The translations under genes were made by a program, and so were the position numbers. The notes under the pieces were generated by a model. The model was not told the DNA's origin. It saw only the letters and a program-made list of their open reading frames with translations, and made no database searches. Positions 23,435 through 60,437 of a stretch of DNA of 64,000 nucleotides are shown one piece after another. The stretch spans positions 1 to 64,000 of the forward strand of contig JAEUWI010000023.1 of NCBI GenBank assembly GCA_016791475.1. The letters run 5' to 3'. The stretch's first letter is position 1. Every line of letters starts with the position of its first letter. The DNA is from Candidatus Hydrogenedentota bacterium (GTDB lineage Bacteria > Hydrogenedentota > Hydrogenedentia > Hydrogenedentales > JAEUWI01).

Positions 23435-23438
23435 AAAA

Positions 23439-23517
23439 GCGGGAGAACGGACTTTCCTGTCCGTTTAAGCGTGCAACTTTGATGCACGATACGCGGGTTG
23501 AAAACCCGCGCTCCCGC
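23439..23517. repeat. Four-stem cloverleaf-like intergenic element
   Basis: An outer stem GCGGGAG (23439-23445) / CTCCCGC (23511-23517) encloses three hairpins: AACGGAC/GTCCGTT (23446-23465), CGTGCA/TGCACG (23470-23488) and CGCGGGTT/AACCCGCG (23492-23510). It fills nearly the whole gap between the convergent ychF and phosphatidyltransferase genes. It may act as a bidirectional terminator or be a REP/BIME-type repeat. Confidence 0.7.
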
Positions 23518-28312: not shown

Positions 28313-28635
28313 TGGAAACCATCGCTGGTGTCGCGTTCGCTGTCCTGTGGGTTCTGCTATGGCTTTGGACCCCGACCGACTTTGTGCTCTGGGGTAAGAA
28401 ACCGGAGTATCCCGAACCCTACCGGCCTCCGGGAGCGCCACCGCCGGACCTGTCATTCCTCGGCAAAGTTGGAGAGGCGCACACCCCGCTCCGCCCCGTT
28501 GGAAGCGTATTGATTGACGGAGAGCAACACACCGCCCGCACCAAGGGCGAATTCATCGACGCGGGTAGGCCGGTCGTGGTGTTGCGCTGGGCCGCTGGGG
28601 AGTTGATCGTGGAAGCCGTGCGGGAATCGGAATAG
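28309..28635 (+). CDS. Second short NfeD-like protein
   Basis: 108-aa protein with one N-terminal membrane helix (IAGVAFAVLWVLLWLW), a proline-rich linker (EPYRPPGAPPPDLSF) and an NfeD-type beta-barrel domain: LGKVGEAHTPLRPVGSVLI, DGEQHTARTKGEFIDAG, RPVVVLRWAAGELIVEAV. It parallels the C-terminal domain of the gene at 27018 (both contain the LRP-G-V-I/L-DG core), so the operon carries two diverged NfeD copies. It starts within the stop of the preceding gene (ATGA overlap). Confidence 0.75.
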   Translation: MMETIAGVAFAVLWVLLWLWTPTDFVLWGKKPEYPEPYRPPGAPPPDLSFLGKVGEAHTPLRPVGSVLIDGEQHTARTKGEFIDAGRPVVVLRWAAGELIVEAVRESE

Positions 28636-28665: not shown

Positions 28666-28865
28666 GCGGCGCAAAGGGGCTTGGGCATTCCTGCCCGAGG
28701 CAAAGCCTGCGTCTATTTGGACAGGCCCTTCCGGTTTGTGCGACCGCCCAGGAAACTCAATATCGCGAACTCTGGCATACGAGGCGCGCGTCCATGATTG
28801 GAGAACGTTTCGGCGATTGAGTGTGCCTTGTCTCGGGCAGGAATGCCCAAGCCCCTTTGCTCCGC
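28666..28865. mobile_element. REPIN-like element, copy 1 (200 bp, inverted hairpin arms)
   Basis: Left arm 28666-28701 and right arm 28830-28865 are inverted copies about 36 bases long with two or three mismatches (core AAAGGGGCTTGGGCATTCC). Each arm folds into an 8-bp hairpin CTTGGGCA-TTCC-TGCCCGAG. The interior 128 bases encode nothing recognisable. A related element stands at 60142-60326. Confidence 0.75.
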
Positions 28866-28911: not shown

Positions 28912-29718
28912 TCAATCCGCGGTTGCGTGCTTCACGATAAACTCCACAATCGGCGCGGGGTCCACGAGGCTGTGGGGATGGTGGCCGACGCCGGGCTTGT
29001 TGATGATCTCGATGGCCCCGCCGAGGGCGCGGTAGCGCTCCGCCAGGACGTCGGTGTTCTCCGCGACGGGAACAACATCGTCGGCATCGCCCACGACGTG
29101 GAGCAGCGGAATCCCCGCTTTGGCCAGGGGGGCGAGACGGTCGATGGGGTTGCGCTTGAAATCCTTCGCGGTGGATTCGTCGAGGCCCCAGGCGGCGAGG
29201 CAGACTTTCCAGTCCTCGGGGCTGCCCAGGCCCTTGCCGAGGCCGCCGGGCCAGCTCCGGATGTCGCACACGGGCGCGTCGCCGTATATGCAGGAAACCT
29301 GGTCGGGATGCTCAGAGGCCCAGTTGTAGGCGATGAGGCCGCCCCGGCTCAGCCCTTCCAATGCGGGCCGCTTGCCGAATCCGTGTTGCTCGGTGAGGAA
29401 AGCGTAGAGGCTGTCGAATATTTTCACGGCAGTGTCGTTGCCGTGAAACTCAAAAACGTCGATGTAGGCCACATGGAAGCCTTTGCCCAGCAACGCCACG
29501 TCCGCCTGAGGCTCGTGTCCCCAGAAGAGGGCCCGCCATACCCAGGGCTTGCCCGGTGCCGATTCCTTTGGACAGGCCACCTTGCATGCGCGCCCCTCGA
29601 TCTCAAAGTCGAACTGCTGGTAGCCGTGGAAGTCGGATGCTGTGCCGCCGAAGGCGCAGGGTTCGGCGAAGGATGGAACGGTGACGGGCAAGAGCAATAA
29701 GGTGAGGACGAAACGCAC
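28912..29718 (-). CDS. Secreted alpha/beta hydrolase
   Basis: 268-aa predicted exported hydrolase. The GTG at 29718 is chosen because AAAGGA lies upstream and it opens a signal peptide (RFVLTLLLLPVTVPSFAEP); an ATG at 29751 has no ribosome site. The nucleophile elbow is LEGLSRGGLIAYNWA (Ser near 117), the acid is probably Asp in VVGDADDVVPVAENTD and the base is His in PGVGHHPHSLVDP. The fold resembles prolyl-oligopeptidase/esterase enzymes acting on plant-wall esters. It is divergent from the two large esterase paralogues and may belong to the same carbohydrate-ester degradation set. The substrate is not known. Confidence 0.75.
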   Translation of the reverse strand: MRFVLTLLLLPVTVPSFAEPCAFGGTASDFHGYQQFDFEIEGRACKVACPKESAPGKPWVWRALFWGHEPQADVALLGKGFHVAYIDVFEFHGNDTAVKIFDSLYAFLTEQHGFGKRPALEGLSRGGLIAYNWASEHPDQVSCIYGDAPVCDIRSWPGGLGKGLGSPEDWKVCLAAWGLDESTAKDFKRNPIDRLAPLAKAGIPLLHVVGDADDVVPVAENTDVLAERYRALGGAIEIINKPGVGHHPHSLVDPAPIVEFIVKHATAD

Positions 29719-58200: not shown

Positions 58201-58274
58201 CAGTTGACAGTTGACAGTTGACAGCGACGCTACCCATAAGACCCATAAGACCCATAAGACCCATAAGACCCATA
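58201..58274. repeat. Compound tandem array: CAGTTGA x3 and CCCATAAGA x4.7
   Basis: CAGTTGA occurs three times (58201-58221) plus CAG, then, after 8 bases, CCCATAAGA four times (58233-58268) and CCCATA. CCCATAAGA is the exact complement of the unit at 22051, and CAGTTGA differs from that locus's CAATTGA by one transition. It stands between divergent DUF481 and ABC permease genes. Confidence 0.95.
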
Positions 58275-58383
58275 CACGCTGCAGCCCAAAGCTCCATTGA
58301 AATTGACTTCCGCCACCCGCTGCGCTACCCTTCCCACAACGCCGCGACACGCGCGGCATCACGAGGGAGCATCGCGGCACACC

Positions 58384-59994
58384 ATGAATCCAGAACGTCC
58401 CCCATCTCCCGCATTCGCTCTCGTGCGGCGCGAGTTGCTGGTTCTGGCGCGCAATCCGCGCCTCTTTGGGCTGATGGCGGGCATGACCACGGTGCTTGCC
58501 CTGGCCGCGCTTACATCGCTCTCATTCACCAGCCTACGCAATGGACAGATGGCTGGATTTGCCCGTAGCATCTTCGGCACGCAGTTTTTCCTGCTCTACG
58601 CCGCCGCCCTCATCGTAGTGCCCGCCATGGCCGCCGCCGCCATCATCCACGAGCGCAAGCAGGACTGCTACCCCCTCCTTCTCACCACGCTCATCCCGCC
58701 CGGCTGGATCGTGTGGAGCAAGCTGATTGCGCTCATGGGCCTCTACGCGGGGCTCTATGCCGGAGTCCTCCCCTTCACGGGCATCATCTATTTCTTCGCC
58801 GGGGTGGAACCGCTGGCCCTGATCCAGGGAATCATCGTCTGCTTCAGCCTTGCCCTGGGCACGACGAGCATCGGGCTGCTGGCGTCCGCCTCCGCCAGAG
58901 ATCACAGCCGCGCTATCTACCATACAGGACTGGGCGTCCTGTGTATGTTGCTCCTACCCTGGGCCGCGCGGGTATTCCTTGAAGCGCTCGGTATTCCCCG
59001 AATGGACTGGCTCCAGTCCGTTGGCCCCTTCAACGCCTATGCCGTAGTGCGCAGCGGACTACCCGACTGGCGACCGCCCCTGGCCTTTGCGATGTATCAG
59101 GGGTGCGTGGCGTGTTTCTGCGTTGTCTTGACGCGACACTATGTGGTTCCGCGAAGAGGGGATTATGGCCAGCGCCTGCCGGCCAACATGCTTGATCGAC
59201 TTCGCTGGAGGCCAGCGTATCGATTCATTCCCATCGCGGATACGCAGAATCCGGTGGCGGCAAAAGACTATCGCGCGAGTGATTTCTCCCGGGGACTCGG
59301 CCCCTGGTTGCTGGTTGCGCTCGGCCTTGCGACCGGTAGCTTCGGCTATTCGATCACCCATACCTTCCCACAGCAATTTGCACCGCTTATAGAGTTCTAT
59401 CTTCTCATCGTCATCCTTCCCGCCGTCGTCTCATCGCTGGTACTCCGGGAGCATCAGGACAATATGATCGGTAGTCTGGGTGTGACCTTGCTCACGGCAA
59501 AGGAAATTACCCGAGGCAAAGTAACGGCGGCGTTGCGCATTCTCAGAATGCTCGTTTGGGGCTTCGTTCTCGGTCGCGTACTGGCCTATGGCGGCATCAC
59601 CTTATGGGGCTTGATCGAGGGCGGCCCCGGTGGCCCGCTAAGCGCGATCAATCCCGCGCCCCTGCTGCTGAGCCTCGCCGAGTTGTTCATCTGCCTTTGG
59701 GTCATCCCGAGATTCGCCCTCGCGGGAGCTTTGGCCAGTTCCAGCCCGCTCGCGGTGGTTTTTTCGAGCTATGCCTTCATATTGATATCGTGGGCTATTG
59801 TCTCTACATTAAGTGCAATTGTTACCGCTTTCATGATGATGGGCTCTTTCGGCGATCCTATGGATGGATATGAAATCGTGTTCCTCCTCGGCCAGAAAAC
59901 GGTGAAATACTTCTTCCTCATCGTTGCAGCACGAATCGCCATGGAAAGCGCGACGACGAAACTCGCCTCGAAATTGATATCCGGCTGGAAGTGA
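58384..59994 (+). CDS. ABC-2 type transporter permease, detached copy
   Basis: 536-aa permease of the same group as those at 50611 and 52371: it opens PSPAFALVRRELLVLARNPR, carries about 12 helices (FLLYAAALIVVPAMAAAAII, LIALMGLYAGLYAGVLPFTG, YLLIVILPAVVSSLVL, YAFILISWAIVSTLSAIVTA) and the internal AKDYRASDFSRGLGPWLLV. There is no ATPase next to it; the nearest is 8 kb away at 49679, from which the defence-like pair, a methyltransferase and DUF481 now separate it. It is likely a member of that transporter set displaced by rearrangement. The ATG at 58384 has a poor ribosome site. Confidence 0.8.
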   Translation: MNPERPPSPAFALVRRELLVLARNPRLFGLMAGMTTVLALAALTSLSFTSLRNGQMAGFARSIFGTQFFLLYAAALIVVPAMAAAAIIHERKQDCYPLLLTTLIPPGWIVWSKLIALMGLYAGLYAGVLPFTGIIYFFAGVEPLALIQGIIVCFSLALGTTSIGLLASASARDHSRAIYHTGLGVLCMLLLPWAARVFLEALGIPRMDWLQSVGPFNAYAVVRSGLPDWRPPLAFAMYQGCVACFCVVLTRHYVVPRRGDYGQRLPANMLDRLRWRPAYRFIPIADTQNPVAAKDYRASDFSRGLGPWLLVALGLATGSFGYSITHTFPQQFAPLIEFYLLIVILPAVVSSLVLREHQDNMIGSLGVTLLTAKEITRGKVTAALRILRMLVWGFVLGRVLAYGGITLWGLIEGGPGGPLSAINPAPLLLSLAELFICLWVIPRFALAGALASSSPLAVVFSSYAFILISWAIVSTLSAIVTAFMMMGSFGDPMDGYEIVFLLGQKTVKYFFLIVAARIAMESATTKLASKLISGWK

Positions 59995-60437
59995 GACAAA
60001 GTCCCAGTTACAGCATCGCACGGCGTCGCGTGAGGCGGATGGGAGCGACAGGCACGTTCAGCCCGCTCGATCGGGACAGCGCCCCTTCAGCCAAGTGAAG
60101 CAATGAGGCAAATTTCACATTTTTCAAAGTGATTGTCTGATAAAGGAGCTTAGAGAGTCTTGTCCGAGACAGGGGGCGCTTTGGGCCGAAAAGGCATGGT
60201 GAATGGGTTGGCGAGTTCTACGTAACCACAGTCACGTTATCGAATGGCGACGATTCCATACATGTAACTACACCTTTCCGATAAGGTGGTGGACCTTGCC
60301 TCAGACAGGACTGTCTAAGCTCCTTTGAAAATGGCCTCTCTTGAAATTCCATGGCCGTGTTGCATTTCGCAGGGCCCCCTCGCTAACCTTCCTCAAGACT
60401 TGAGCATTGAATGCCAACATGGGAAACGCGGCACGCC
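59995..60437. other. Intergenic region containing REPIN-like copy 2
   Basis: 443 bases without a supportable gene. Copy 2 of the REPIN-like element fills 60142-60326. The first 140 bases contain GGGA-GACAGGCACG-type words similar to the arms at 26793 and 32117, without a clear pair. Confidence 0.5.
60142..60326. mobile_element. REPIN-like element, copy 2 (185 bp, inverted hairpin arms)
   Basis: Left arm 60142-60170 and right arm 60298-60326 (29 bases, 25 matching) are inverted copies with core AAAGGAGCTTAGACAGTCC. The right arm folds as CTTAGACA-GTCC-TGTCTGAG. It is the same stem position as copy 1, with G-C pairs replaced by A-T pairs at two positions. Confidence 0.75.

Follow-up and report, generated by a model that had tools for sequence, protein, structure and literature searches.

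Two repeated elements, each an inverted pair of 33-nt arms in which every arm forms a hairpin, were located in the window, that is, in the whole 64,000-nt stretch of Candidatus Hydrogenedentota DNA that was analyzed. Copy 1 (28673-28858, 186 bp) is intergenic; the gene to its left ends near 28635, and the minus-strand gene to its right ends at 28912. Its left arm (28673-28705, plus strand) carries the tag GGGG at 28676-28679 and a hairpin at 28680-28699, and its right arm (28826-28858, minus strand) carries GGGG at 28855-28852 and a hairpin at 28851-28832. Copy 2 (60142-60326, 185 bp) lies between two plus-strand genes, with the stop of the first at 59994 and the start of the second at 60411. 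Its left arm (60142-60174, plus strand) has the tag GGAG at 60145-60148 and a hairpin at 60149-60168, and its right arm (60294-60326, minus strand) has GGAG at 60323-60320 and a hairpin at 60319-60300 with all pairs intact. Both copies belong to class I as described below. The original prediction had placed two elements at 60142-60326; both exist, but these coordinates cover copy 2 alone.

The four window arms align without gaps and were numbered 1-33, positions 1-7 being AAAGGRG, positions 8-15 and 20-27 the stem, and positions 16-19 the loop. Both arms of copy 1 have the stem CTTGGGCA/TGCCCGAG (28680-28699, plus; 28832-28851, minus), with G-C at pairs 11-24 and 13-22. The right arm of copy 2, with the stem CTTAGACA/TGTCTGAG (60300-60319, minus), has A-T at both of these pairs, whereas the left arm (60142-60174), with the stem CTTAGAGA/TGTCCGAG, has A-C at pair 11-24 and G-G at pair 14-21. 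In copy 2, compensatory change is therefore complete in the right arm but disrupted in the left, and the two G-C to A-T double changes that had been claimed for this copy hold perfectly in the right arm only. The loop and the flanking word GAGGC, both described earlier as constant, do vary, since the loops read TTCC versus GTCC and GTCT, and the flanking word is either GAGGC or GAGAC.

The 33-nt inverted repeat is 85% complementary, and the folds of both elements lie far below those of shuffled sequences (z -9.3 and -6.3). A covariance model built from nine arms, the four window arms among them, matched these four at E 2e-13 to 2e-10, and the next site in the window had an E of 1.3. The tags GGGG and GGAG place the window copies outside the canonical definition of GTAG REPs, which calls for a hairpin whose stem is at least 7 bp long, preceded on the 5' side by GT[AG]G at a distance of 0-2 nt.

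The hairpin at 23446-23465, which had been proposed to share its core with these arms, did not match the covariance model; it belongs to an arm of another repeat family, and what the two have in common is a similar hairpin. This copy of a separate REPIN-like family (23438-23516, plus strand) consists of a GGAG tag at 23442-23445, the hairpin at 23446-23465, a central hairpin, and a right hairpin with an inverted GGAG. The stretch is found at 34 places in the genome, itself counted, mostly over about 80 bp. Twenty other copies were aligned, and most comprise the GGAG-hairpin, the central hairpin and a different right hairpin with an inverted tag. Paired stem changes in the central hairpin of this family were seen by eye and left uncounted. 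Another repeat in the window, a short tandem repeat at 58218-58380, gives repeats of IRP or WVL when read in overlapping frames.

Searching the genome with the nine-arm model yielded 72 matches at E ≤ 10, and a wider model, R2, built from 31 arms, identified at least 102 arms at E ≤ 1. In the retrieved genome pieces, 108 arms were found at E ≤ 0.05, forming 37 inverted pairs within 320 bp, all with the plus arm first and the tag outside, while 34 of the 108 arms had no partner. Class I arms (AAAGG..., 33 nt) make up 20 pairs, 16 of which measure 182-190 bp; class II arms (mostly AACGTGG..., usually 32 nt) make up 17 pairs, 13 of which measure 147-154 bp. The arms are thus inverted palindromes at a preferred spacing, with many dispersed copies in one genome, the features by which REPINs are recognized. 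At arm positions 4-7, where GTAG sits in known REPs, class I mostly has GGGG, GGAG or GGAT, whereas class II in the same genome mostly has GTGG. Model R2 identified at least 100, 117 and 79 arms in three congeners and at least 38 in a second genus of the family, and it matched at least one of 55 other relatives, these counts being lower bounds from the part of the first-look candidates that was scored.

The spacers of the 37 elements are mostly dissimilar, with eight alignments at E < 1e-3 among them, and recent copying of whole units is therefore not evident. A single attempt to find an empty site for copy 2 revealed no movement, as its flank was not shared on both sides because the neighboring gene differs in G003. 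Several further arrangements were also observed in the genome (G000). On contig C47 (21543-22076), five same-strand class I arms stand in tandem with a 95-bp period, preceded by one opposite-strand arm, an array suggestive of a partial REPIN amplified in tandem. Two longer class I elements, of 254 and 259 bp, are located on C17 (57691-57944) and C21 (39570-39828), and their spacers match in inverted orientation (77% over 140 bp). An arm on C46 (6603-6656) has an insertion of about 21 nt in the hairpin loop.

As had been suggested, arms were collected with a covariance model and examined for stem covariation, and covariation was found in the additional copies; a set of further copies lacking covariation at the stem, which would have spoken against the prediction, was not encountered. 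The 31 distinct arms contain 241 stem cells, of which 97.5% are paired and 43 have two-sided changes, the latter at four stem pairs. The covariation score for these arms was 0.467, compared to 0.184 in shuffles, and pairing dropped to 21-44% when partners were slid. At the third stem pair, 27 of the 31 arms have T-G and the other four C-G; T-G would be an A-C mismatch on the opposite strand, which gives the arm a strand asymmetry. Because covariance models favor pairing, the search was repeated with a pattern that left the four varying stem pairs free. This blind pattern found 45 arms and its reversed control none. The 34 distinct strings obtained include one that is clearly unrelated; of their 136 free stem cells, 130 are paired, compared to a mean of 86.3 and a maximum of 106 in 10000 shuffles; shuffles ignore relatedness, so that these comparisons are not probabilities. 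The two window copies alone prove little, because one of their four arms breaks the pattern, but the results support the conclusion that the fold of the arm is maintained across the population, far past the two copies from which this was first proposed.

A search of the genome with PF01797 found 14 Y1 genes, five of which form one group (E ≤ 1e-25). HxH, W, Q and D are invariant in these five proteins, which therefore combine the HUH motif with the guide-reading motif of RAYTs (W94, Q95, [ED]100 and R104 in the numbering of PMC6006769, main text). They match the NCBIfam model REP_Tyr_transpos (NF047646) at E 2e-23 to 2e-15, with scores of 56.7-72.1 bits for the proteins on C89, C9, C50 and C17 and 81.4 bits for that on C6, relative to a cut-off of 80 bits, and align without gaps to the E. 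coli TnpAREP structure 4er8. Three of the five genes (C89, C50 and C9) are flanked on either side, at up to 600 bp, by arms whose stem is particular to the locus. RAYT loci C452 and C606 of G002 and C279 of G003 also have arms with their own stems within 600 bp, as does C59 of G005 on the downstream side, and the layout REPIN-RAYT-REPIN is common to C452 and C89. Related arms thus flank RAYT genes, each with its own stem, which supports the classification of the window elements as REPINs. The RAYT on C6 is accompanied by a GGAG-tagged hairpin that differs from these arms.

Arms with the exact stem type of the window copies were not found beside any RAYT gene in the genome. The C17 gene was considered as the RAYT for this stem, since a related element is located about 2.2 kb away, and was rejected, as its near flanks hold weak hairpins with a best E of 0.18. 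Beside this gene (L161, about 1189-1478) there is a tandem array of weak GGAG-like hairpins with a period of about 136 bp.

A survey covered 80 contigs with titled RAYTs, mostly from Verrucomicrobiota, plus Planctomycetes, Kiritimatiellae, Hydrogenedentota and others. Both flanks were present in 73 contigs, and 52 of these had an inverted repeat scoring ≥ 16 across the gene; scores in the swapped-flank control were at most 13. With a first tag caller, G[TG][AG]G was detected next to the hairpin in 33 of the 52 loci, against a background of 10%. A second caller, blind to the protein, assigned tags in 56 of 68 repeat-bearing loci (100 loci in total), and since it scans more positions and includes GGAT, the 10% background does not apply to it. 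One of the 56 tagged loci had no readable motif, leaving a discovery set of 55. A held-out set of 162 loci was reduced to 148 by dropping 14 identical ones; 65 of these had no inverted repeat, three had no flank, 17 had an untagged repeat and 63 were tagged, and seven of the tagged loci had no readable motif, so that 56 were tested.

Position 101, assigned here by ungapped alignment to 4er8, is reported among the GTAG-interacting residues in E. coli and is sometimes R (PMC6006769, main text). In the discovery set, GT tags occurred with 24 H and 7 R, and GG tags with 21 R and 3 T. A rule for tag and residue was then fixed before the held-out loci were examined, where GT occurred with 30 H and 1 R, and GG with 21 R, 2 T and 2 H. 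Of the 56 held-out loci, 52 agreed with the rule, as did 53 of the 55 discovery loci (Fisher p 2e-12 for the held-out set, with ancestry ignored). The two held-out loci with H and GG, L379 (2-nt offset) and L369 (whose loop suggests the wrong strand), look miscalled and were still counted. Loci with zero offset gave GT with 45 H and 7 R, and GG with 24 R, 4 T and 1 H.

By mutual information with the tag, residue 101 ranked first of 195 protein columns in the whole set and second and third in the halves. Residue 98 was considered as sole determinant and found to be weaker (rank 6 versus 1). The seven discovery loci with R101 and GT tags indicate that 101 alone is not sufficient. Other columns that follow the tag are residues 190, 37 and 43 of the C89 protein, with H at 190 in 45 of 49 GG rows and Y at 43 in 58 of 62 GT rows. 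Base 3 of the tag showed a loose trend with residue 102.

These results make it very probable that the window elements belong to a population of REPINs, inverted tagged hairpins recognized by a RAYT, an HUH/Y1 transposase, as single-stranded and strand-specific folds, with stems that co-vary and a GG tag that changed together with residue 101. The RAYT would recognize each arm as a hairpin on one strand, with the 4-nt tag at its foot and a T/C-rich loop held within narrow limits, and since the enzyme depends on the hairpin, changes in the stem would accumulate in pairs. With a stem of its own for each RAYT lineage, enzyme and repeat would thus change together. In class I, GG may have replaced GT[AG]G as residue 101, with 98 and others, changed alongside. 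The window copies are accordingly presumed to be, or to have been, mobile and to be served by a RAYT of this kind.

Hairpins kept for a role in RNA, as stabilizers of mRNA 3' ends or as terminators, would be consistent with the intergenic position of both window copies, copy 1 being downstream of a gene, with the frequent T-G (U-G) pairs in stems and with folds much stronger than those of shuffles. However, no Rfam family matched at the elements, tRNA being the only match in the window, fixed lengths and constant polarity are unexpected for terminators, and the arms flank transposase genes in lineage-specific forms, which makes an RNA role improbable. The elements are also under 300 bp with fixed ends, and their arms are able to pair over 33 nt, as in a MITE with long terminal inverted repeats, in which pairing of arm with arm matters and the hairpin of each arm is incidental. 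The two types of pairing could be compared in 31 of the 37 elements, in which 20 stem pairs differ between arms; at these, 33 of 40 cells pair within the arm and 24 of 40 between arms, counts that modestly favor the arm's own hairpin, although seven of the 20 pairs are broken in one arm. Arms without a partner keep the hairpin too, and RAYT genes are flanked by arms, and we therefore regard a MITE as unlikely. It is similarly doubtful that copying or conversion among a few founder stems produced the paired changes, with no selection on the fold itself. Many arms do share one of a few stems, and the relatedness of the rows means that shuffles overstate significance, but no fewer than 13 two-sided changes are required to link the 23 fully paired 7-bp stems, and arms of this design with different stems are also found in other genera and phyla.

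A more substantial alternative for the association of tag and residue 101 is that it reflects only common descent within a small number of RAYT clades, and to this we assign a real, though lesser than even, chance. In a tree of 111 rows, parsimony gave seven tag changes and six H101 changes; on supported branches there were three independent pairs of tag and 101 switches, on average 2.4 in the same direction (sign test p 0.25), and other protein columns are nearly as informative as 101. On the other hand, no column ranks above 101 in the whole set, this is a position already published as GTAG-interacting (PMC6006769, main text), and a switch is located within the RAYT clade of the window itself (support 99), which contains both states, GTGG with H and GGGG, GGAG or GGAT with R or T. 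A bolder reading, to which we give about even odds, is that REPs need not have GT[AG]G as their guide tag and include a large GG group, that residue 101 reads the second base (H where the base is T, R or T where it is G) with the help of 98 and residues near the first core strand, and that enzyme and repeat switch together, also within the window's genus.

The elements resemble the GI-GIII REPINs of P. fluorescens SBW25 as described in the main text of PMC3116915 in their inverted REP pairs of fixed length, compensatory changes, spacers more constrained in length than in sequence, tandem clusters, and groups that adjoin specific RAYTs. They differ in their lengths of about 150 and 185 bp, the GG-type tag of class I, the phylum, and the RAYT clade. 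The GTAG-tagged REPs of Di Nocera 2013 (PMC3733652, main text) likewise have an unpaired tetranucleotide at the hairpin foot, head-to-head dimers, and stem sub-families with complementary changes, and GTGG of class II is the tag of most O. terrae GTAG-20 elements; class I has GGGG, GGAG or GGAT, whereas the degenerations listed there are GYAG, GYRG, GTRG, GTMG and GTGG. The TIRs of TIRYT genes in the same text are also inverted repeats at Y1 transposase genes, some self-complementary and some with a GGGG-containing motif. That motif, however, is GGGGWSAS with no tag-then-hairpin arrangement, and the RAYTs studied here keep the W-Q-D-R guide-reading motif; 20 of 26 TIRYTs were placed in subclass 2.1 (PMC6006769, main text). 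E. coli TnpAREP and its REPs (4er8; PMC8266576 and PMC6006769, main texts) share with the present system the HUH/Y1 family by sequence, the ungapped WQxxxW[DE]HxxR alignment, and a GT tag with H101, although the sequence match amounts to just 25-34 bits; bulged stems are described for E. coli REPs in these texts, and GG tags are not.

Complementary stem changes were previously reported in the main texts on REPs (PMC2817692, PMC3733652) and compensatory changes in that on REPINs (PMC3116915), and the co-evolution of RAYTs with REPs is likewise a well-known concept. The stem covariation is therefore a further example of behavior already published for REPs and REPINs. The newer part of the finding is the GG tag and its link to RAYT residue 101, which were not found in the main texts and literature listings searched; GGAG has no occurrence in the main texts of PMC6006769, PMC3733652 and PMC2817692.

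In conclusion, the results bear on how RAYTs choose their REPs and cutting sites, and in one REPtron tag bases are reported to help pick the cut site (PMC8266576, main text). They indicate that REPs with GG tags would escape searches confined to GT[AG]G, such as that in the main text of PMC6006769. Closely related RAYTs of one genus that differ in tag (GTGG versus GGGG, GGAG and GGAT) and in residue 101 (H versus R or T) constitute a natural experiment, through which the co-evolution of enzyme and repeat becomes directly testable by single substitutions. If residue 101 does read the tag, this would provide a protein-DNA code for retargeting single-strand transposases.
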